Of a stretch of 41,684 nt of DNA, positions 10,511 to 24,088 are shown one piece after another; the first letter of the stretch is position 1; each line of letters starts with the position of its first letter. Origin of the DNA: Clostridia bacterium DTU025 (GTDB taxonomy: Bacteria > Bacillota > DTU025); assembly GCA_001513145.1 (NCBI GenBank), contig LFSP01000010.1, positions 1 through 41,684 on the forward strand, written 5' to 3'. Both the position numbers and the translations under genes were made by a program. The notes under the pieces are model-generated. The model was given only the letters and a program-made list of their open reading frames with translations, did not search any database and had not been told where the DNA came from.

Positions 10511-10540
10511 GCTGCCGCCAGGCAGTTGGAGGTAATAGCT

Positions 10541-13500
10541 TTGAGCTCGTCAGTGCCGAGAACGTTCAGAGTGTCTCACATATCTGTGGCCGCCCTCGCG
10601 GCCCTCGCGGTGACTTGCGTCATCATGCTGGCGGCGGCCCCGCTGGCACAGGGGGCAACCCAGACGCAGGCTTGGCTCTTCGCCACTGCACGAACCTACC
10701 ATCCAACCCAGAAGCCCGAGATAGGCGTGCGCGGGCAGGGCCTCAAGTCCCTGTGGGTTGATGTGTACTCCTTCGATGGCGCCTCCTACTTCTCAGAGGC
10801 CGGCCAGGAGGGCTTCTGGAACATGGACGTCGCGAAGCTTCCCGGGCGTCAGCTGGCAAAGAGCGTCTCGGTGCCCATCGACAGGGCAGGGAAGCCGGCC
10901 GTCAGTTCGGTGGTGCTTGACCCACTGCCTCCCGGCTGTTACGTGGCGCTCCCGCGGTCTTCAGGGATCCGATCCGCTTATCCGGTGTGGTTCACCGTGT
11001 CGGCGTTCGGGCTTGTGACGAAGCAGTCCGCCAGTGCCCTCCTGGTGCACGCCGTCGATATCCTCACAGGCGCCCCGGTGGCTGGCGTCGAGGTGAAGGC
11101 GTCTCTCTATCCCAGTGGATGGCAGGAGCCTGCCGAGGCCGCGCCAGGCCCGGTTAGGCTCGCCGGAACCACCGGAAGCGACGGCCTGTGGCGCGCGGCC
11201 GCATCCAGCCCCTCGTCGTCTGCGGTGATCATAGGCGTCCGCGGCCAAGAGGTGCAGGTGGCCAGCTCGTATCACTGGTTCGACTCTAGGCAGCACGCGG
11301 CTTACGTATACACCGACAGGCCCATATACAGGCCGGGCAACACCGTGAGCTTCAAGGGCATCGTCAGACGGATCCTGGATCCGGGCTACTCCATCCCCGA
11401 AGGCTCCACCGTTGATGTGGAAGTCACCGACTCCAAGGGCAACCGTATATACCGCCAGCAGCTGCCCCTGAGCAGCTGGGGCTCTTTCGATGGCTCTCTG
11501 GTCCTCGCCGACGAGCCGGCGCTGGGCAGGTACTCCATCGCGGTCAGCGTCGACGGGGAGCAGCACTGGTCCAGCTTCGACGTGGCCGAGTACCGCAAGC
11601 CCGAGTGGTCCGTGGAGGTGAGGTTCGACCGGGACCGCTACATCGCCGGCGACGCGCTGGAATCCGAGGTATCAGCGGTGTACTATTTCGGCTCCCCAGT
11701 GCAGGACGCGCAGGTAGACTACAGGGTGTACCGGCAGCGCACCGGCTTCTTGGGTGACCTCGGCGCATCGGCCGCCGGCGGCTTCCGCCACGAGTATTAC
11801 GGCTACTACCAGGGGCAGGAGCTCTACTGGCAGGAGTTCGTGACCTCCGGCACGGCGCGCACCGACTCCTCCGGAAAGGTGCACCTCAGCTTCAAGGCTC
11901 CGCTGTCGTCATACGGCGACGGCAACTACGTGTACATGCTGGTGGCCGATGTCACGGATTCCACCGGCAAGGTAGCCTCCGGCTCCGGAAGCGTCCTGGT
12001 GGCAGGCGGCACCTTCGACGCCCAGGTTGTCGCCGACCGCTGGATTGTCTCGCCCAACCAGGAGTTTTCCGTGAAGGTGCTGACGGTGACTTCCGATGGC
12101 TCTCCCGCCAGCCGCCAGCTGGCCCTGGACGTCTTGCGCCGAAGGTGGCACAAGGACGGTTACACCGACACCCCCGTGTCGCGTATGGACGTCTCGACTT
12201 CGGCCCGCGGCGAGGCCGCCGTGGGCGTGACGGTGCCTGAGGCGGGGGAGTACATCATACTGGCGTCCGGCACCGACGAGCGCGGCAACCGCGTGGAGGC
12301 CTCCACGTGGATATGGGCCTCCAGCCGCGAGGGCGGCGTGCGCTCGGAGCGTTCCGACATGGTGCTGGTGGTCGACAGGGAGCGGTACAGCATAGGCGAT
12401 ACGGCACGAGTGGTGGTATCTGGCCCATCGGAGCTGGAATCCGTGCTCGTGACCGTGGAGGACAGAGAGCTCAGATTCGCCCAGGTTGTGCCCATGCGTG
12501 ACGGCTCAGCGTCTATAGATGTAGAGATAAAGCCGGAGTACGCGCCGAACACCTGGGTGTCGGCAACCGCGGTGAGCGACGGCGTGATGCAGACCGCCTC
12601 CCGCGAGATTGCCGTGGATGACCCAGATACGTCCCTCGTGGTGGAGATAAGCCCAAACAAGGCTGAGTATCGCCCTGGGGAGACCGCCACGTTCACCATC
12701 AGCGCCCGCGACGCGAAAGGGGAGCCAGTCAGCGCTGAGCTGTCATTCGCCCTGGTAGACGAGGCCGTGTTCGCAGTGAGGGCAGACTCCACCCCCGACA
12801 TCACGCAGTTCTTCCACGGCAGGCGCTATCAGGCGGTGACCACGGAGAACTCGTTCCCCGTGACGTACTACGGCGGGGCCGACAAGGAGGGCGGGGCGCA
12901 GTCCGACAGGAAGTACTTCCCCGACACCGCCACGTGGCTGCCGTCGGTGGTCACCGACGCCAACGGCCGCGCCGTGATCAAGCTGAAGATCCCTGACAGC
13001 CTCACCACCTGGCGCGCCACGGTGCGGGCGCACTCCCGCGACACCCTGGTGGGGCAGGCCGTCGCCAAGGTGAAGGTATCGCTGCCGCTCGCCGTGAGGC
13101 TTGGGCTCCCCAGGTTCTATACACTTGGAGACAGCGGTTCCGTGGCCGGCGTGGTGCATAACGACACCGCAAGCAGCCGGAGGGTGTCGGTGACGCTGCA
13201 GGCGCAGGGCGCAGACATAGACGGGCCCGCAAAGCGGTACGTGACCGTGCCGGCGTTCGGCAGCGCCACCGTGGAGTGGACCATCAGGCCGCGGGCGGTG
13301 GGAGAGGTGGTGCTGTCGGCGCGGGTCAGGTCGTGGTTCACCACTGACGGCGTGGAGATGCGGGTGCCGGTGAACCCCTTCGGTGAGCCCGGCGGCGCCA
13401 CCATGGCCGGAGAGACGGATGGCGCCGGAGCAGAGGTAAGTCTGGAGCTGCCCGAGGCGCTGGTGCCTGGATCGGTGGGCGCGTGGGTGGACCTGTCTCC

Positions 13501-14971
13501 AGGTTACCTGGGGCTGGTAGCCGAGGCGCTGGAGCAGCTGGTGGCGTACCCGTACGGGTGCGTGGAGCAAACCATGAGCGCCTTCCTGCCGGATCTTGTG
13601 GCGCAGGAGGTCCAGAGGAAGCTGGGAGTGCCGTCGCCTCGCAGCGACGAAGAGCTCTCGAAGATGGTGAACGATGGTCTTGCCAGGCTCTACCGGCACC
13701 AGCACGATGACGGGGGCTTCGGCTGGTGGGAGTACGACAGTAGCGATCCCTGGATGACGTCGTACGTGCTCTACGGCTACGCCGTAGCCAGGCAGGCGGG
13801 ATACGACGTTGCCGAGGGCAGCGCACGGCGGGCAGTGGACTACCTGGGGTCGGTCGTGTCACAGCTGATCAACCAGCGCGACCAGGCTTTCGCCGCGTAC
13901 GCGCTGGCGCTGCACGGGGCGCTCGCCGGCGATGGGGTTAAGGCCCTTGAAGGCCTGGCGGAGAGGGTCACCGACGCTCAGGCCACCGCCTTCGTGGCGC
14001 TGGCCGCGCACGCCCTGGGTGATGCGGAGCTGGCGGCACACGCTGTGGGGAAGCTTGCGGCCCAGGCTGTGCGCGGCGACGGGCAGGCCGTCTGGAGGAC
14101 CGAGGATCCCGATAGACCCTGGAGGAGCGAGTCGGCGGAGTCCACGGCGTGGGCGCTGATGGCGCTCGCGTCAACCGGCGCTGACCGGGAGCTGGCCAGC
14201 GAGGCAGCGCGGCATCTGGCCAACGCGCGACAGGGCGCGTGGTGGCAATCCACAAGGCACTCCGCCGCGGCGGTGATGGCGCTGGCCAAGTTCGTGGACT
14301 ACACCGGCGAACGGGGGGATTCCGGCGCGCCCACTGTAACCGTGTTCGTCAACGGCGAGCGGCTGAGCAGCGTCAAGGTGGCCGGCGCCACCAGAGTGAA
14401 CATCGACGCGGCCAAGCTCAGGCAGGGGCGAAACACCGTGCGCATCCAGTCAGACGGGGGCAGGGCTTATTTCGCGGTGGAGGCACAGTGGCACCGAGCG
14501 GCCCAGCACGTCGACGCGTCCGGCGAGAGCGCCCAGATCATCCGCGAGTACCTCCTGATAGACCGCACCACGCCTGCGGACGAGCGCGGCAACCCCGCAA
14601 CCCTGCCCTTGGGCGATTCCCACGCGGTGAGAGCGGGGCAGGAGGTGCTGGTGCGCGTGCGCATAAGGGCCAATCAGAACCTTGAGTACATGGCCTTCGA
14701 GGACCCCCTCCCTTCGGGGTTCGAGGTGTCGGACGGCTTCGACGATCCGTACTCCTGGACGTATTGGTACAGTCGCAAAGAGGTGCGCGACAACCGCGTG
14801 GTGGTGTTCGCAGGTTCCATCCCCAAAGGGGAGGAGCGGGTGTACGAGTACGTGATGGTGCCGGAGCGGCCCGGCGACTACCTGGTGATGCCCACCACCG
14901 CGTGGTCGATGTACTACCCTGACCAGCACGCCCGCGGCGCCAGCGCACGAATAAGGGTGGTGCCGCGATGA
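10541..14971 (+). CDS. Bacterial alpha-2-macroglobulin family protein with thioester
   Basis: Large exported protease-trapping protein of 1476 aa. A signal peptide (VAALAALAVTCVIMLAAAPL) is followed by macroglobulin beta-domains, including AYVYTDRPIYRPGNTVSFKG near residue 256, typical of A2M_N. The bait-type region is about 480-650. The A2M core TWLPSVVTDANGRAVIKLKI is about residue 795. The thioester motif YPYGCVEQ has its Cys at 1007, followed by an alpha/alpha toroid (WWEYDSSDPWMTSYVLYGYA). The C-terminal domain carries FEDPLPSGFEV. The TTG at 10541 is chosen because GGAGG lies 8 nt upstream; an earlier in-frame TTG overlaps that ribosome site. The intact CVEQ means covalent trapping is possible. 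The usual partner pbpC is not seen. A VanW gene overlaps the 3' end. Confidence 0.95.
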   Translation: MSSSVPRTFRVSHISVAALAALAVTCVIMLAAAPLAQGATQTQAWLFATARTYHPTQKPEIGVRGQGLKSLWVDVYSFDGASYFSEAGQEGFWNMDVAKLPGRQLAKSVSVPIDRAGKPAVSSVVLDPLPPGCYVALPRSSGIRSAYPVWFTVSAFGLVTKQSASALLVHAVDILTGAPVAGVEVKASLYPSGWQEPAEAAPGPVRLAGTTGSDGLWRAAASSPSSSAVIIGVRGQEVQVASSYHWFDSRQHAAYVYTDRPIYRPGNTVSFKGIVRRILDPGYSIPEGSTVDVEVTDSKGNRIYRQQLPLSSWGSFDGSLVLADEPALGRYSIAVSVDGEQHWSSFDVAEYRKPEWSVEVRFDRDRYIAGDALESEVSAVYYFGSPVQDAQVDYRVYRQRTGFLGDLGASAAGGFRHEYYGYYQGQELYWQEFVTSGTARTDSSGKVHLSFKAPLSSYGDGNYVYMLVADVTDSTGKVASGSGSVLVAGGTFDAQVVADRWIVSPNQEFSVKVLTVTSDGSPASRQLALDVLRRRWHKDGYTDTPVSRMDVSTSARGEAAVGVTVPEAGEYIILASGTDERGNRVEASTWIWASSREGGVRSERSDMVLVVDRERYSIGDTARVVVSGPSELESVLVTVEDRELRFAQVVPMRDGSASIDVEIKPEYAPNTWVSATAVSDGVMQTASREIAVDDPDTSLVVEISPNKAEYRPGETATFTISARDAKGEPVSAELSFALVDEAVFAVRADSTPDITQFFHGRRYQAVTTENSFPVTYYGGADKEGGAQSDRKYFPDTATWLPSVVTDANGRAVIKLKIPDSLTTWRATVRAHSRDTLVGQAVAKVKVSLPLAVRLGLPRFYTLGDSGSVAGVVHNDTASSRRVSVTLQAQGADIDGPAKRYVTVPAFGSATVEWTIRPRAVGEVVLSARVRSWFTTDGVEMRVPVNPFGEPGGATMAGETDGAGAEVSLELPEALVPGSVGAWVDLSPGYLGLVAEALEQLVAYPYGCVEQTMSAFLPDLVAQEVQRKLGVPSPRSDEELSKMVNDGLARLYRHQHDDGGFGWWEYDSSDPWMTSYVLYGYAVARQAGYDVAEGSARRAVDYLGSVVSQLINQRDQAFAAYALALHGALAGDGVKALEGLAERVTDAQATAFVALAAHALGDAELAAHAVGKLAAQAVRGDGQAVWRTEDPDRPWRSESAESTAWALMALASTGADRELASEAARHLANARQGAWWQSTRHSAAAVMALAKFVDYTGERGDSGAPTVTVFVNGERLSSVKVAGATRVNIDAAKLRQGRNTVRIQSDGGRAYFAVEAQWHRAAQHVDASGESAQIIREYLLIDRTTPADERGNPATLPLGDSHAVRAGQEVLVRVRIRANQNLEYMAFEDPLPSGFEVSDGFDDPYSWTYWYSRKEVRDNRVVVFAGSIPKGEERVYEYVMVPERPGDYLVMPTTAWSMYYPDQHARGASARIRVVPR

Positions 14972-15888
14972 CCGGAGCGCCGGGGCGCCTGCATCGGACG
15001 GGCATCGTAGTCACGGCGCTGGCTGTGGCCTTTGCGGCGCTGGCCTTCACCGCCGCCACGACTCCCTGGCCGCCGTCTAGGGCTGGGGGCGGTGCGCCTG
15101 CCGGCCTGGCCACCGGCGAGCTCGGCTCGGGCGACGATCCCGGCGGGCGCGGCGACCGAGGAGCGGGGCCCCCTGGGGTCGATGGAGGCGCCGTGGTGAT
15201 GGGAAGGTGCGTCACGCCCCTTGTGCAGGAGCAGAGGAGCCGAACCGACAACGTGGCGCTGGCGGCCAGGATCCTTGACGGCGCCGTGGTCGGGCCGGGG
15301 GAGGAGTTCTCGTTCAACGCAAACCTGGGCCGGCGCACCGAGGAGGCCGGATACAAGCCCGCCAGGGTGATAGTGGACGGGCGGAGCGAGGCAGGCCTGG
15401 CCGGGGGGATCTGCCAGGTGTCGTCCACGCTGTATAACGCGGCGCTGCTTTCGGGCATGGAGATCCTGGAGCGGCACCCGCACTCCAGGCCAGTGCCGTA
15501 CCTGCCGATGGGACTTGACGCCACGGTATCGTACGGCTCCCTGGATCTCAGGTGGAGGAACCCCTGGAGCTTCCCGGTGACGGTGAGGGCGCAGGTGATC
15601 GGTGCCGGCTCCGAGCTTGCGGTGTGGATAGAGGGGGCCGAAGAGCCTGAAAAGGTACAGCTGGTATCGGAAGTGGTGGAGGTGGTGCCGCCCAGGCCTG
15701 CAGGCGAGCCGGGATACACAGGAAGGCCGGTGGCAGGCGCACCCCTTGCCGGCGGGGAGATCGTGCATGCAGGCGCCTCGGGCTACCGCGTGAGGGTGTG
15801 GGCAGAAACCCGGGGCGCGGGCGGCGAGAGGTGCAGGAGGCTTGTGTCGGAGGATTTCTACGAGCCTGTACTGGCCGTGGCGCGTTGA
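14968..15888 (+). CDS. VanW family protein, membrane-anchored
   Basis: 306 aa. An N-terminal hydrophobic segment (TGIVVTALAVAFAALAFTAA, about 12-33) anchors the protein, and a Gly-rich linker follows. The VanW domain runs from about residue 90: RTDNVALAARILDGAVVGPG, EEFSFNANLGRRTEEAGYKP, then GGICQVSSTLYNAALLSG, which carries the conserved GGGxCQVSTTLYNA-like core, and RWRNPWSFPVTVRAQ. VanW proteins occur with cell-wall and vancomycin-resistance loci, but their biochemical role is not settled. The ATG overlaps the upstream stop as ATGA, so translation is coupled to the alpha-2-macroglobulin. The 3' end overlaps the convergent EamA gene by 31 bp. Confidence 0.93.
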   Translation: MTGAPGRLHRTGIVVTALAVAFAALAFTAATTPWPPSRAGGGAPAGLATGELGSGDDPGGRGDRGAGPPGVDGGAVVMGRCVTPLVQEQRSRTDNVALAARILDGAVVGPGEEFSFNANLGRRTEEAGYKPARVIVDGRSEAGLAGGICQVSSTLYNAALLSGMEILERHPHSRPVPYLPMGLDATVSYGSLDLRWRNPWSFPVTVRAQVIGAGSELAVWIEGAEEPEKVQLVSEVVEVVPPRPAGEPGYTGRPVAGAPLAGGEIVHAGASGYRVRVWAETRGAGGERCRRLVSEDFYEPVLAVAR

Positions 15889-16962: not shown

Positions 16963-17634
16963 ATGGATCGGGACCGTGAGCTGAAAATCGCCGTGGCGCA
17001 GGAGCACCTCCGACTCCTGCCCAACGTGGTCATGGCAAGGATAGTTGAAGGTGCCGACGGCGATGAGATTCACGTCATGGTCAACCAGCGTCTCGACCAG
17101 GACGGCATCAAACGCCTCAAGAAGGATATCGAGACCATTTACCTTCTTGACACGGGGGAGAGGATCGACTATCGAAAGGTGAGCATCGCCCAGGTCCAGG
17201 GCGAGGCGGAGAAGGGAGATCTCGGTGGCACACGCGTCATCCGTCGTCCAGTGCTGGCCAGCGTGGCGCTGGAGTACGGACCCAGAGGTTCCATGAGCGC
17301 CAGGGTGGTGCTGGAACACTCGGGTTGCTCCTATGTGGGAAACGCATCGGGATACGCCCACGAGCATGAGATCTGCGACCTGGTTAGGGCGGCCACCGTC
17401 GATGCGGTACAGCAGATGGCCGGCGAGGCCGTGCGCGTGCAGGCCAACTGCCAGCCCCATGGCGACAAGGTGATCGCCGAGGTCACAGTGGTCGACTCCG
17501 CCTCAGGCACGCGACAGCGCTACGTGGGGGCGGCGTTCCATCGGGACGATCTGCCCACCACGGTTGCCAGATCGATACTGCACGCGCTCAACAGACAGTT
17601 CGAGGTGCTTCTGAAACCTGTGGTGTCGCTGTGA
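16963..17634 (+). CDS. Conserved-looking protein of unknown function (223 aa)
   Basis: I do not recognise a family. The protein is soluble, with no signal peptide or membrane segment. It reads as two modules. Residues 1-75 (LLPNVVMARIVEGADGDEIH, then LKKDIETIYLLDTGERIDYR) have an alternating strand-helix-strand look like a small ferredoxin-like or ACT-like fold. Residues 100-223 (VALEYGPRGSMSARVVLEHS through HRDDLPTTVARSILHALNRQ) look like two strand-rich repeats each followed by a helix. The start has an excellent GGAGGTGA 4 nt upstream. It lies 89 bp before a tiny exported-peptide gene and a membrane HD-GYP gene on the same strand, so a signalling role is possible but is only inference. Confidence 0.75.
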   Translation: MDRDRELKIAVAQEHLRLLPNVVMARIVEGADGDEIHVMVNQRLDQDGIKRLKKDIETIYLLDTGERIDYRKVSIAQVQGEAEKGDLGGTRVIRRPVLASVALEYGPRGSMSARVVLEHSGCSYVGNASGYAHEHEICDLVRAATVDAVQQMAGEAVRVQANCQPHGDKVIAEVTVVDSASGTRQRYVGAAFHRDDLPTTVARSILHALNRQFEVLLKPVVSL

Positions 17635-17723
17635 TATATCAGAGTTCCCGTCGCAGCGGGAGATGAGATCATAAGCTGAGCTGAGCCTCCGGAAGTTCTA
17701 CCACTTTCTAGGAGGTGACGCCA

Positions 17724-17819
17724 GTGAAGAAGTTCACGCTGGTAGGGCTGATCACCGCCGCTCTGACCGTCCTGATGTCGGTCGTGGCGCTCGCGGGTGA
17801 TACTTTCCTCATGAAGTAG
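17724..17819 (+). CDS. 31-aa candidate exported peptide
   Basis: GTG start with a perfect AGGAGGTGA 4-5 nt upstream (17710-17718), stop TAG at 17817-17819. The product starts with Lys-Lys, has a hydrophobic core (FTLVGLITAALTVLMSVV), and ends in a signal-peptidase-like VALA followed by GDTFLMK. If cleaved after ALA it would release a heptapeptide; if not, it is a single-span membrane microprotein. It lies 101 bp before a membrane HD-GYP gene. I know no named family for it. The best ribosome site of the neighbourhood in front of such a short frame argues that it is translated. Confidence 0.6.
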   Translation: MKKFTLVGLITAALTVLMSVVALAGDTFLMK

Positions 17820-17920
17820 TCGGGAGGTAGGGCCCGTTCTCTACTGGGCGTTAGTCGCTGCGGCGGGATCTTTTGATGTCCTTCTCGCACACCGTCCCAT
17901 AGATCCGGAGGTGGGATCTA

Positions 17921-19174
17921 GTGCGCCTCATGCGCCTGCTACACGACTTATACATAGCACTCCTCATAGCAGCATCCGCAGCCCTGATCGCGCAAACGTC
18001 CACATGGGCGGTGCCTCTTCCCACCGCCATCGTGTGCGTCGGAATGCTCTGGATTTCGTCGCTATCAGTCATCAACTTGAGGCGCACCGTGGTGGTGATG
18101 GTTTTCCCTGTGGTGTTTGTGCTCCTGATGAAGTACGATCCCGGCTCCGCCGCCCTGGTGGCAGCTCTGGGGAGCATGAGCGCCCAGGAGTTCCGCATAA
18201 TGCAGGAGAACAACCCTCCCCTCGGGGCGCTGCTGAAGTTCATCGGCAACAGGGCCGTAACCGCCTTGAGCGCGTTCGCCGCATGGGGTGCGTTCAAACT
18301 AGTCTACCCCCATGATCCGTTGAACTTCGGCGACCCTGTCTTCCTCCTGGCCTCCGCTGCTGCAGGGATGACGTGGGTCATCACGTCCGGCCTCATAGTG
18401 AACCTCCAGATTGTGCTTTCCCGGCCGTCCTTCAGGCTGAGGCTGGAGCCAAGCATCGTGTTCGGGTCAGTGTACTCCACGCTACCGTCGGTGGTGATGG
18501 GGCTGATGGGGGCGGCCATGTACGAGCTGGGCGGCCTTCTCCCATTCGCCGTCACCCAGGCGTTCTTCATCTACAATAAGCACTACACCCATTGGGCGAT
18601 GGTCCAGAAGGAGAACGCGGAACAGATCAACCTCGCCCTCGCCCGCATTATCGACTCGAAAGACCACTACACCGCCGGCCACTCGGAGCGCGTGGCGGAG
18701 CTGGCTCGCAGGCTCGCCGAGCACTGCAGGCTGCCCAGGGCCGATGTGGAGCGGCTCGAGTACATCGCGCGTTTGCACGACCTCGGGAAGATCAACGTGC
18801 CCAACGAGATACTGACGAAGCCGTCGGCGCTGACGCCGTCGGAGTTCGATGCCGTGAAGATGCACAGCGAGTGGGGAGCTGAGCTCATCCGCGGCATGGA
18901 CAAGATCTACAGCGAGCGCGATTACCGTGCCATCCTGGAGCATCACGAGAGGTACGACGGCGCAGGATATCCTCTGGGGAAGAAGGGCACCGAGATCTCG
19001 CTATGGGCAAGGATACTGTGCATCTGCGATGCGTGGGACGCCATGACCAGCGAGCGAGTGTACCGTCCTGCGTTGCCCGAGGCGGAGGCCATCGAAGAGC
19101 TCCGGAGGAACGCCGGCGCGCAGTTCGATCCGGAGCTGGTCGAGATCTTCATCAACAAAGTCCTGAGCGAGTGA
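17921..19174 (+). CDS. Membrane-anchored HD-GYP domain phosphodiesterase
   Basis: 417 aa. The N-terminal ~220 residues hold about six hydrophobic segments (LYIALLIAASAALIAQT, TAIVCVGMLWISSLSVINL, VVVMVFPVVFVLLM, and LPSVVMGLMGAAMYELGGLL), forming a membrane sensor without a known extracellular domain. The HD-GYP domain follows from about 238: HYTAGHSERVAELARRLAEH, HDLGKINVP with the HD pair at 286-287, and HHERYDGAGYP at 341-351, so metal ligands and the GYP loop are intact. The family hydrolyses cyclic di-GMP or related dinucleotides. GTG at 17921 has GGAGGTGG 6 nt upstream. The stop overlaps the next gene by one base. A tiny peptide gene lies just upstream. Confidence 0.93.
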   Translation: MRLMRLLHDLYIALLIAASAALIAQTSTWAVPLPTAIVCVGMLWISSLSVINLRRTVVVMVFPVVFVLLMKYDPGSAALVAALGSMSAQEFRIMQENNPPLGALLKFIGNRAVTALSAFAAWGAFKLVYPHDPLNFGDPVFLLASAAAGMTWVITSGLIVNLQIVLSRPSFRLRLEPSIVFGSVYSTLPSVVMGLMGAAMYELGGLLPFAVTQAFFIYNKHYTHWAMVQKENAEQINLALARIIDSKDHYTAGHSERVAELARRLAEHCRLPRADVERLEYIARLHDLGKINVPNEILTKPSALTPSEFDAVKMHSEWGAELIRGMDKIYSERDYRAILEHHERYDGAGYPLGKKGTEISLWARILCICDAWDAMTSERVYRPALPEAEAIEELRRNAGAQFDPELVEIFINKVLSE

Positions 19175-20855: not shown

Positions 20856-22256
20856 ATGCAGACTAGAGGCATAACCGACTTCACCACGGGAAGCATTCCA
20901 CGCCATCTCATCAGGTTCGCCATGCCGATGTTCCTCGGCAACCTGCTGCAAGCCGCATACAACACGGTGGACAGTATCTGGGTGGGCAGGTTCCTAGGGC
21001 CCGATTCCCTTGCCGCGGTGTCGGTGGGGTTTCCCATAATATTCGCCCTCGTGGCGCTGGTGGCGGGCCTCACCATGGCCACCACCACTCTCGTGTCGCA
21101 GTACTACGGGGCGAAGGACAATCAGATGGTGAGCCTCACGATAGCCAACTCCATGACCGTGATGACTGCAGCCGGCATCGTCCTGGCTGTCCTCGGATAC
21201 CTGGTGCGCTGGCCCATGCTACGGCTGCTCAGGGCGCCGGTGAACATCATGGATGAGGCAGCGACGTACCTGGGGATCTACATGCTTGGCCTCATACCTA
21301 CGCTCATCTACAACGTCAGCAGCGCGATACTGCGCGGGCTCGGCGACTCGCGCTCGCCCATGACGTTCCTGGCAGCAGCCACGCTCACCAACATAGTGCT
21401 TGACCCGCTGATGATCTTCGGCATCGGTCCGTTCCCGTCCATGGGGGTGGCCGGCGCGGCGTGGGCGACGGTGATAAGCCAGACGCTCTCTGCGGTACTG
21501 GCCGTGCAGCACATGCTTGGAAAGCTAGGCGTGGCCAGCCATCTGAGGGACCTGGTGAGGTTCGACGGCAAGCTCACCGCCACCACCGTCAGGATCGGCC
21601 TGCCCGCAGGCGCCCAGCAGATGCTGGTGTCGCTTGGCATGATGGCGGTGATGTCCACGGTGAACTCCTTTGGCAGCGTGGTGGTGGCCGGGGCGGGTGC
21701 AGGTTCCAGGATCGAACAGTTCGCTTTCATGCCGTCGATGAGCGTGAGCCTGGCGGTTACCGCGCTGGTCGGTCAGAACATAGGGGCTAACAGGTACGAG
21801 AGGGTGCCGCTGATCGTCAGGTGGGCGCTGATCTTGGGTTGCTCCATAGCGGCTGTGGCGGCGGCTGTGGCTCAGTTGGTGCCGAAAGTTGTGTTGTCGG
21901 TGTTCACTGACGATGCGGCGGTGCTGGCTGCCGGTGCTGGTTACCTCAGGTGGCTTAGCATGGCGTGGGTGCCGTTTGCGGCCAACTTCGTGTTCATGGG
22001 CGTGCTGCGCGGCGCCGGCGATACCCTCCCTACGCTGTTCATCACCTTGGCGGGCCTGTGGGCGGTGCGCGTGCCGCTGGTGAAGGTGCTGGCCCGCACG
22101 GATCTGGGTGCCGTAGGAGTGTGGATCGGCATGGCGTCGAGCCCGGTGTTCAGCGTCATCGCCAGCTACGCGTACTACCGGTCGGGCAGATGGCGCCGGC
22201 GCAGGCTGGTGCCGGAGGAGCGTCCGCCGCAGGGCGGCACGATACCGGAGAATTGA
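20856..22256 (+). CDS. MATE family efflux transporter
   Basis: 466-aa inner-membrane protein with about twelve hydrophobic segments in two halves. It opens MQTRGITDFTTGSIPRHLIR, then MFLGNLLQAAYNTVDSIWVG, the classical first MatE helix. The second half repeats the pattern (IGLPAGAQQMLVSLGMMAVM, then LVGQNIGANRYERVPL). The family exports drugs or metabolites with Na or proton antiport; the substrate is unknown. GGAAGGAGAA lies 11 nt before the ATG, somewhat far. It is 32 bp after the Na/Pi gene and 17 bp before pepF. Confidence 0.95.
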   Translation: MQTRGITDFTTGSIPRHLIRFAMPMFLGNLLQAAYNTVDSIWVGRFLGPDSLAAVSVGFPIIFALVALVAGLTMATTTLVSQYYGAKDNQMVSLTIANSMTVMTAAGIVLAVLGYLVRWPMLRLLRAPVNIMDEAATYLGIYMLGLIPTLIYNVSSAILRGLGDSRSPMTFLAAATLTNIVLDPLMIFGIGPFPSMGVAGAAWATVISQTLSAVLAVQHMLGKLGVASHLRDLVRFDGKLTATTVRIGLPAGAQQMLVSLGMMAVMSTVNSFGSVVVAGAGAGSRIEQFAFMPSMSVSLAVTALVGQNIGANRYERVPLIVRWALILGCSIAAVAAAVAQLVPKVVLSVFTDDAAVLAAGAGYLRWLSMAWVPFAANFVFMGVLRGAGDTLPTLFITLAGLWAVRVPLVKVLARTDLGAVGVWIGMASSPVFSVIASYAYYRSGRWRRRRLVPEERPPQGGTIPEN

Positions 22257-22273
22257 AGGAGGATGGTGCGCCA

Positions 22274-24088
22274 ATGTCGGAAGCGCGTTCCGCGTCGGCA
22301 CTGCCTGGCCGCGCCGACGTTCCGGATCACCTCAAGTGGAGACTGGAAGATATCTACGCCACAGACGAGGCGTGGGAGGCCGACATGGCCAGGGCGGCGG
22401 AGACCATTCCGAAGCTTGTGGCCATGTCAGGGACTCTGGGCCAGAGCGCCCATAGGCTCTTCGAAGCCCTTTCGCTCCGCGACCAGCTGGCCGAGCTGGT
22501 GGAGAAGCTGTACACGTACAGCAGGATGAGACGCGACGAGGACAACGCCAACCCCAAGTACCAGGCCATGGCGGACCGGGCGACCAGCCTGGCGGTGCAG
22601 GCGCAGTCTGCGGCGGCGTTCTTCGAGCCCGAGGTGCTGGAGATCCCAGAGGACGTTCTCGATGGCTACATGTCGGAGCTTCCTCAGCTGGGCGTCTACA
22701 GGCATGACCTGCATGACATAACGCGGAGGCGGCCGCACACGCTGTCAGCTGCCGAGGAACGGATAGTGGCCATGGCCAACGAGGTGGGCGCCAGCGTCCG
22801 GTCGGTATTCACCATGTTGAACAACGCGGACATCACCTTCCCCAGCATAGAGGATGAGCACGGCAACAAGGTGGAGGTCACGAAGGGCCGGTACCTGGCG
22901 CTCGTGGAGAGCAGGGACAGGAGGGTGAGGAAGGACGCGTTCACCGCGCTGTACTCGTCATATAGATCGCTGGCGAACACCATCGCCGCGTGCTACGCTG
23001 CGTCGGTGAAGGACGACGCGTTCGTGGCGAGGGTGAGAAGGTACCCGGATTCCATAACGGCAGCCCTTGATCGGTTCAACATCCCGGTGGCGGTGTACGA
23101 CAACCTGGTGAAGGCCGTCAGGGACAACCTGCACCTTATGCACAGGTACGTGTCGCTCAGGAAGCGGGCGCTGGGCGTGGACGAGCTGCACATGTACGAC
23201 GTGTATGTGCCCATCGTGCCCGAGGTGGACTGGAAGGTCAGCTACGAGAAGGCCAAGGCGGCGGTGGTGGAGGGTCTCGCCCCGCTGGGCGAGGACTACA
23301 TCGGCGAGATGGTGAAGGGGCTCGACTCCGGCTGGGTGGACGTGGTGGAGAGCCGCGGTAAGACCTCCGGCGCGTACTCGTGGGGCGTGTACGACGCCCA
23401 CCCTTACGTGCTGCTCAACTGGAACGACACCTTCAATGACATGTTCACCCTCGCGCACGAGCTGGGCCACGCGATGCACTTCTACTACTCATGGAAGACC
23501 CAGCCTTTCGTGTACGCTGACACCCCCATCTTCGTGGCTGAAGTGGCGTCCACCGTCAACGAGGTGCTCTTGCTCAAGCACCTGCTGAAGACCATTGAGG
23601 ACAGGCGGCGCAGGATGTACCTGCTCAACTACTTCCTAGAGTCGTTCAGGGGTACGGTGTTCAGGCAGACGATGTTCGCCGAGTTCGAGCGGCGCGCCCA
23701 CGAGATGCACGAGGCTGGCATGGCGCTTACGCCGGAATCGCTCAGCGAGATGTACCGACAGCTGAACGTGGATTACTTTGGGCCCGAGATGGTGATCGAC
23801 GACGAGATATCCGTGGAGTGGGCGAGGATACCCCATTTCTACACGGCGTACTACGTGTACCAGTACGCCACAGGGTTCTCGGCGGCGGTGGCCATCGCCG
23901 ACGCGCTGATCAGCGAGGGTAGACAGGCGCAGGAGAGGTACATAAGCTTCCTCAAGGGAGGCAGCAGCGATTACCCGCTGGAGTTGCTGAAGCGCGCCGG
24001 CGTGGATATGACCACTCCGAACCCAATGCTGAGAGCGCTTAGGGTGTTTGAAGATACCTTGGAAGAGCTGGCGAGACTTCTCGGGTAG
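22274..24088 (+). CDS. pepF: Oligoendopeptidase F (M3B family)
   Basis: 604-aa cytosolic zinc oligopeptidase that cleaves short peptides. The zinc-binding HELGH is at 395-399 within FTLAHELGHAMHFYYSWKTQ, with the third ligand expected in EVASTVNEVLLLKHLL. The N-terminal oligopeptidase F domain (LSLRDQLAELVEKLYTYSRM) and the C-terminal YYVYQYATGFSAAVAIAD are family hallmarks. AAGGAGGA lies 10 nt before the ATG at 22274; the open frame further upstream only overlaps the MATE gene. It closes the HD-GYP, Na/Pi, MATE run of tightly packed genes. Confidence 0.96.
   Translation: MSEARSASALPGRADVPDHLKWRLEDIYATDEAWEADMARAAETIPKLVAMSGTLGQSAHRLFEALSLRDQLAELVEKLYTYSRMRRDEDNANPKYQAMADRATSLAVQAQSAAAFFEPEVLEIPEDVLDGYMSELPQLGVYRHDLHDITRRRPHTLSAAEERIVAMANEVGASVRSVFTMLNNADITFPSIEDEHGNKVEVTKGRYLALVESRDRRVRKDAFTALYSSYRSLANTIAACYAASVKDDAFVARVRRYPDSITAALDRFNIPVAVYDNLVKAVRDNLHLMHRYVSLRKRALGVDELHMYDVYVPIVPEVDWKVSYEKAKAAVVEGLAPLGEDYIGEMVKGLDSGWVDVVESRGKTSGAYSWGVYDAHPYVLLNWNDTFNDMFTLAHELGHAMHFYYSWKTQPFVYADTPIFVAEVASTVNEVLLLKHLLKTIEDRRRRMYLLNYFLESFRGTVFRQTMFAEFERRAHEMHEAGMALTPESLSEMYRQLNVDYFGPEMVIDDEISVEWARIPHFYTAYYVYQYATGFSAAVAIADALISEGRQAQERYISFLKGGSSDYPLELLKRAGVDMTTPNPMLRALRVFEDTLEELARLLG

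Follow-up and report, generated by a model that had tools for sequence, protein, structure and literature searches.

The membrane HD-GYP gene studied here belongs to a conserved three-part unit, composed of up223, a structured RNA that carries its own microprotein gene, and the membrane HD-GYP phosphodiesterase. Comparison of sequences across the phylum establishes the gene, the RNA helices and the linkage to HD-GYP, while gating in cells, membrane location, contact with the enzyme and c-di-GMP as its output are what we infer from them. The structured RNA around the short frame goes beyond what the initial annotation of this DNA had described. The RNA and the peptide family both appear to be undescribed, although each component has familiar counterparts: structured RNAs that carry small frames, small membrane proteins and HD-GYP enzymes. 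A search of the open-access PMC literature, where absence is weak evidence, gave nothing relevant on an HD-GYP-linked RNA or microprotein, on DUF5317 or on MASE9. With this unit come a microprotein family and a structured RNA family that the databases searched do not list, both associated one-to-one with an HD-GYP enzyme in many anaerobes.

The short frame and its linkage to HD-GYP

In the window (the whole 41.7 kb stretch of DNA analysed, to which all positions refer), a 31-codon frame is located between up223 and the membrane HD-GYP gene. The genes and the ribosome site are as follows:

16963–17634, + strand: up223, 223 aa, two domains, no known family (Pfam/NCBIfam, AlphaFold, Foldseek)
17710–17718, + strand: Shine-Dalgarno AGGAGGTGA, five bases 5' of the GTG at 17724 (sequence)
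17724–17819, + strand: microprotein gene, 31 codons, GTG start (homologues, pN/pS, sole such frame)
17921–19174, + strand: membrane HD-GYP phosphodiesterase, 417 aa, MASE9-like region (Pfam HD_5, structure model)

The product of the short frame is VKKFTLVGLITAALTVLMSVVALAGDTFLMK, with its stop (TAG) at 17817–17819. Sequence and coordinates agree with the initial annotation, which had placed a 31-codon frame, preceded by a strong ribosome site, ahead of a membrane HD-GYP gene. Among the window's frames of 20–45 codons, taken from both strands, no other unites a perfect ribosome site with an N-terminal Lys/Arg and a segment of strong hydrophobicity.

Conservation of such frames upstream of homologous HD-GYP genes, proposed at the outset as the way to check the gene, was found both in the window's order and at distant loci. 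Within the order, a check for stops, frameshifts and conserved position found the frame just upstream in 9/9 genomes with an HD-GYP orthologue, where it falls into two families, one (f1) of MK(K/R)F(T/A)L...FADTFLMK-type peptides and another represented by MKKLTLAAVVAAIVTLAGSVAAFADLMLFK. Codon substitution patterns indicated purifying selection: pN/pS was 0.21 among six frames compared from the window's family and 0.27 among eleven from Desulfosporosinus. In both sets the differences were mostly at third codon positions, and the two shifted reading frames gave ratios above 1. On this comparative evidence the 31-codon frame is confirmed as a genuine gene, conserved and under selection, whose presumably translated product is a tiny hydrophobic peptide.

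Outside the window's lineage, the peptides are built from a basic start, a hydrophobic core, LAGGA, a variable residue, an aromatic residue, K/R and W, and the typical peptide across the phylum reads M(S/A)KLFKAITVLVTLVLAGGA-x-(F/Y/W)-(K/R)-(W/I). Those of the window's order present a good signal-peptidase-like motif, AFA/DTFLMK. Conservation is strongest in the hydrophobic core and the LAGGA patch, and the tail retains aromatic and basic residues; outside the order it is usually 4–6 residues long, with F, Y and W swapping freely, as do K and R. In Desulfosporosinus the tails differ and the core is constant. Three loci (L197, L204 and L211) encode versions of 19–20 aa, those in L197 and L211 identified by eye from the sequence, which keep the ...(K)W end (NYKW, VWKW and YLKW) and have lost most of the hydrophobic core; their reduced length or their charge probably prevents these peptides from spanning a membrane. 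Six peptides compared with Pfam and NCBIfam matched no family above the curated cut-off, and profile and homologue searches for further genomic copies of the gene produced none that was convincing.

Taking up223 as an anchor, we screened the region immediately downstream at each locus for a short frame preceded by a ribosome site. A frame of 23–34 aa was matched automatically in 92 of 106 loci, several of the misses being due to the filter, to the end of a contig or to a masked stretch. In this first set, in which six frames were assigned by hand and 81 distinct peptides were collected, the frame was present in 93/93 loci with an HD-GYP gene downstream and in 0/7 without one, the loci not all being independent because some genomes had been fetched twice. 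A seeming exception, L061, has up223 in tandem, the first copy being followed by a second up223 with the HD-GYP gene further on. A second set of 20 loci, drawn from genomes in which the peptide profile had given no hit, contained the frame in 4/4 loci with HD-GYP (one typical, three of the short versions) and in 0/16 without. By eye, the next gene in these 16 was mostly secA, and spoVS-like in two; two of the 16 duplicate genomes of the first set, and the independent negatives number about 20 in all. Conversely, a search of 200 whole genomes with the peptide profile gave matches in 52, of which 51 had a single hit and the other had two, the second within a 502-aa frame. Of 30 hits whose surroundings were fetched, 29 lay between up223 and HD-GYP, and the remaining one was at a contig end beside HD-GYP. 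The claimed pairing of the short frame with the membrane HD-GYP gene is, by all three counts, specific, and gene order across these loci demonstrates that the frame tracks HD-GYP and not up223 by itself.

Named isolates carrying the locus include Desulfosporosinus, Carboxydocella, Geosporobacter, Caloranaerobacter and Thermosediminibacter. In two Thermincola-type loci (L061 and L154), up223 is tandemly duplicated and the RNA and frame follow solely the copy adjacent to HD-GYP.

Neighbouring genes

The up223 protein has no family above cut-off in Pfam or NCBIfam; it was found in 159 of 399 genomes of the phylum, and the genome collection yielded at least 490 relatives. Its AlphaFold model (pLDDT 91) has a C-terminal half similar to the regulatory domain of LeuA/citramalate synthase (Foldseek E 8e-6 to 5e-4, 14–18% identity), in line with LeuA_dimer matches below the cut-off, and an N-terminal half with a weak resemblance to RBM/KH-like folds. 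An RNA-binding or amino-acid-sensing role for up223 might be entertained as an idea. The gene often stands directly before secA (by eye) and sometimes after the ribosome hibernation factor gene hpf, up223 loci having been noted in the window and in L101, L107, L157, L195, L202 and L210.

The HD-GYP protein matches HD_5 in Pfam (E 7e-37) and has the complete HD / HHE-DGxGYP signature. Every position of the HD and HHExxDGxGYP signature, metal ligands included, is invariant in 44 orthologues. Its model (pLDDT 92) matches the c-di-GMP phosphodiesterase 4mcw over the HD-GYP part (Foldseek), and the predicted output of the enzyme is c-di-GMP. The membrane region is classified as MASE9 by Pfam in two relatives and bears a weak likeness to ECF S-components, so that the earlier statement that the enzyme has no obvious sensor domain needs correcting, a candidate sensor region being present.

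In several scanned loci outside the window's order the gene sequence is hpf, up223, the RNA with its frame, HD-GYP and DUF5317, with secA next in L105; the window and several further loci do not have secA in this place. DUF5317 was seen directly after HD-GYP in L068 (7232–7852), L088 (7068–7679), L105 (7134–7712) and L063 (7396–8016), all of them outside the order. The genes downstream of HD-GYP within the order are, in turn, one for a Na/Pi cotransporter, one for a MATE protein (in most genomes), pepF and a pullulanase-type gene. The initial annotation had linked the peptide to pepF, the peptidase M3 / oligopeptidase F frame found in the window at 21965–24088. Since pepF lies downstream within the order and DUF5317 directly follows HD-GYP elsewhere, we consider pepF a case of order-level synteny that falls outside the conserved unit, and as a partner of the microprotein it is unsupported beyond the order. 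Further upstream, the window encodes a large bacterial alpha-2-macroglobulin-like protein of 1481 aa (10526–14971), followed by a VanW-domain protein (14968–15888).

A structured RNA enclosing the frame

The RNA elements identified in the window are the following:

17646–17659, + strand: 5' arm of the closing helix P1 (unconstrained fold; cross-clade covariation)
17660–17687, + strand: repeated motif GAGATGAGA..GCTGAGCTGAGCC, conserved in the order, AGCGRAGCGR in other clades
17685–17716, + strand: hairpin P2 over the ribosome site, GCCTCC with GGAGGT (window fold; permutation test across loci)
17855–17868, + strand: 3' arm of P1, pairing with 17646–17659 (cross-clade covariation)

P1 encloses the whole short frame, an arm located after up223 being complementary to an arm located after the frame, and the domain that it closes measures about 190–310 nt. 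The letters of the arms differ by clade (GGCCGACAGATTTG/CAAATCTGTCGGCC in L138, TTGGATCGGCAGG/CCTGCCGATCCAA in L098, TATTTTAGGTCGGC/GCCGACCTAAAATA in L088 and CCTGTCGCAGCGGG/CCCGCTGCGACGGG in L142). Over 44 non-redundant loci the mean arm score was 32.3 for matched versus 20.8 for mismatched arms; 0/2000 permutations attained the matched mean, the highest among them being 23.5, and 21.7 was the score of a control region lying further downstream. RNAalifold, applied to a 21-locus alignment in which the helix was not supplied and the input was cut at the predicted arms, which aids the aligner, returned P1 as 12 pairs, 10 of them with compensatory changes on both sides. In this alignment 99.6% of cells were paired, as against 24–55% when it was slid by one to three columns, and 0/500 shuffles equalled it on four of the five measures. 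The permutation test is independent of the alignment. In three loci of the Carboxydocella type (L062, L159 and L160), no P1 was detected.

Of 78 loci, 34 have a T-rich run where P1 ends on its 3' side, against a background of 13%. The distance from the stop of the short frame to the start of HD-GYP has a median of 51 nt, and P1 does not overlap that start. We rejected P1 as a universal intrinsic terminator, given that the T-rich run follows it in less than half of the loci; a subset of the P1 elements could act in this way.

The second helix, P2, pairs the region near or after the AGCGRAGCGR motif with the ribosome site or with bases beside it (CGAGTATAGCCT/GGGCTATATTCG in L110, TTTATAGCCTGCTTA/TAGGGAGGCTATAAA in L121 and GAACAGCCC/GGGCTGTTT in L149). 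Matched pairs averaged 17.9, compared with an average of 15.4 and a maximum of 17.3 in 5000 permutations. The unconstrained fold of the window holds both P1 and the P2 hairpin (z-score -2.4).

Comparison with Rfam returned no match at gathering score for the window, none relevant for the element at E values up to 10, and nothing but tRNA for nine relatives. The odc1 motif is a structure located largely upstream of an 11-aa frame that governs the choice between two starts (PMC8632094). This motif and other uORF RNAs resemble our element in that a conserved short frame has its ribosome site within a conserved RNA structure; here, in contrast, the helix encloses the entire frame and the downstream gene is unrelated to odc1.

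Possible roles of the microprotein

The explanation that we favour, to which we would give about an even chance of being right, is a mini-gene, gated at translation, whose product is a membrane microprotein acting with the adjacent MASE9-like HD-GYP enzyme. P1 folds the RNA back and closes a domain around the entire short frame, and P2 masks the ribosome site. As P2 covers this site, we propose that the microprotein is made solely when P2 opens, which might be brought about by a ligand, by a protein binding the repeated AGCGRAGCGR motif, or by other means. The microprotein would most likely reside in or on the membrane beside the MASE9-like region and tune the activity of the enzyme. We count in favour of a membrane microprotein its exclusive linkage to the enzyme, the selection on the peptide, the conserved core and LAGGA, and the aromatic and basic tail, which resembles a membrane interface; against it we count the short variants and the three loci in which P1 was not found. 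Small membrane proteins such as KdpF, AcrZ and CydX tune a neighbouring membrane protein, and they share with this peptide a size of roughly 25–50 aa, one hydrophobic helix and linkage to a membrane partner. Unlike them, the candidate partner here would be an HD-GYP enzyme, proposed from linkage, and the gene lies within a structured RNA. If the microprotein does regulate the enzyme, it would provide a direct handle on the control of membrane HD-GYP proteins. A broader version, in which an RNA-enclosed, RNA-gated microprotein serves as the dedicated partner of HD-GYP and links the breakdown of c-di-GMP, phylum-wide, to an input for which the RNA or up223 is the sensor, is one that we hold tentatively and judge somewhat improbable.

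Linkage to HD-GYP would also arise from control of enzyme expression purely in cis. The frame could be a leader peptide, whose translation, or pausing upon it, alters the folding of P1 and thereby controls HD-GYP expression, perhaps with the peptide as a sensor of membrane insertion or of another input. We regard this as the main rival, albeit an unlikely one, because P1 brackets the frame, ends shortly before HD-GYP and carries a T-rich run in part of the loci; the occurrence of short variants that probably do not span a membrane, and of secA downstream in L105, also speaks for it. Selection over the entire hydrophobic core, with no fixed set of residues at the stop codon, argues against it, as do the variable length and sequence of the tail, the lack of a T-rich run in more than half of the loci and the absence of overlap between P1 and the HD-GYP start. 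SecM, MifM and VemP are secretion-monitoring leader peptides that similarly combine a signal-peptide-like nascent chain with RNA structure, and in L105 secA does follow HD-GYP and DUF5317; here, however, there is no conserved C-terminal arrest motif, and the window lacks secA at this position. An amino-acid attenuator was rejected, since the frame contains no codon run despite the frequent Trp near its stop. Should control in cis be correct, the architecture would be unusual, a regulatory RNA whose closing helix encloses an entire gene.

The initial annotation had also raised a peptide signal. In this reading, a pre-peptide would release a tail of 4–7 residues through signal peptidase and the sensed tail would alter second-messenger turnover. 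Its signal-peptide-like layout, with AFA/DTFLMK in the window's order, keeps company with streptococcal SHP/ComS pheromones, which have 20–30 aa, a basic start, a hydrophobic core and a short variable tail, some of them with paired Trp, and there is a likeness to SHP and XIP pre-peptides in general. Because the tails vary within a genus, as in Desulfosporosinus with its constant core, we have kept this possibility in play, at a distinctly low probability. In contrast to SHP/ComS, no cognate cytosolic receptor gene is adjacent and the neighbour is a membrane HD-GYP protein; among the loci no receptor, exporter, protease or other processing gene is conserved (pepF being linked within the order alone), what is conserved around the frame being up223 and HD-GYP, joined outside the order by DUF5317. 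The interchangeable F/Y/W and K/R of the tail are moreover as in membrane-interface anchors, and the three short variants have poor signal-peptide cores. In the mRNAs of type I toxins such as hok, aapA1 and tisB, a small hydrophobic peptide is likewise encoded between pairing ends with a covered ribosome site, and this self-inhibited layout is seen at our locus, where long-range 5'–3' pairing surrounds such a peptide. That the frame encodes a toxin of this type, controlled by antisense RNA, is nevertheless very improbable, and the resemblance is anatomical only: the gene occurs as one copy per genome at a fixed chromosomal locus tied to HD-GYP throughout the phylum, unlike mobile, lineage-specific toxins, and a simple consensus scan of the window's element revealed no antisense promoter-like site. 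Short frames are common, yet a chance frame devoid of function deserves next to no credence, contradicted as it is by the conservation, the pN/pS values and the exclusive linkage to HD-GYP.
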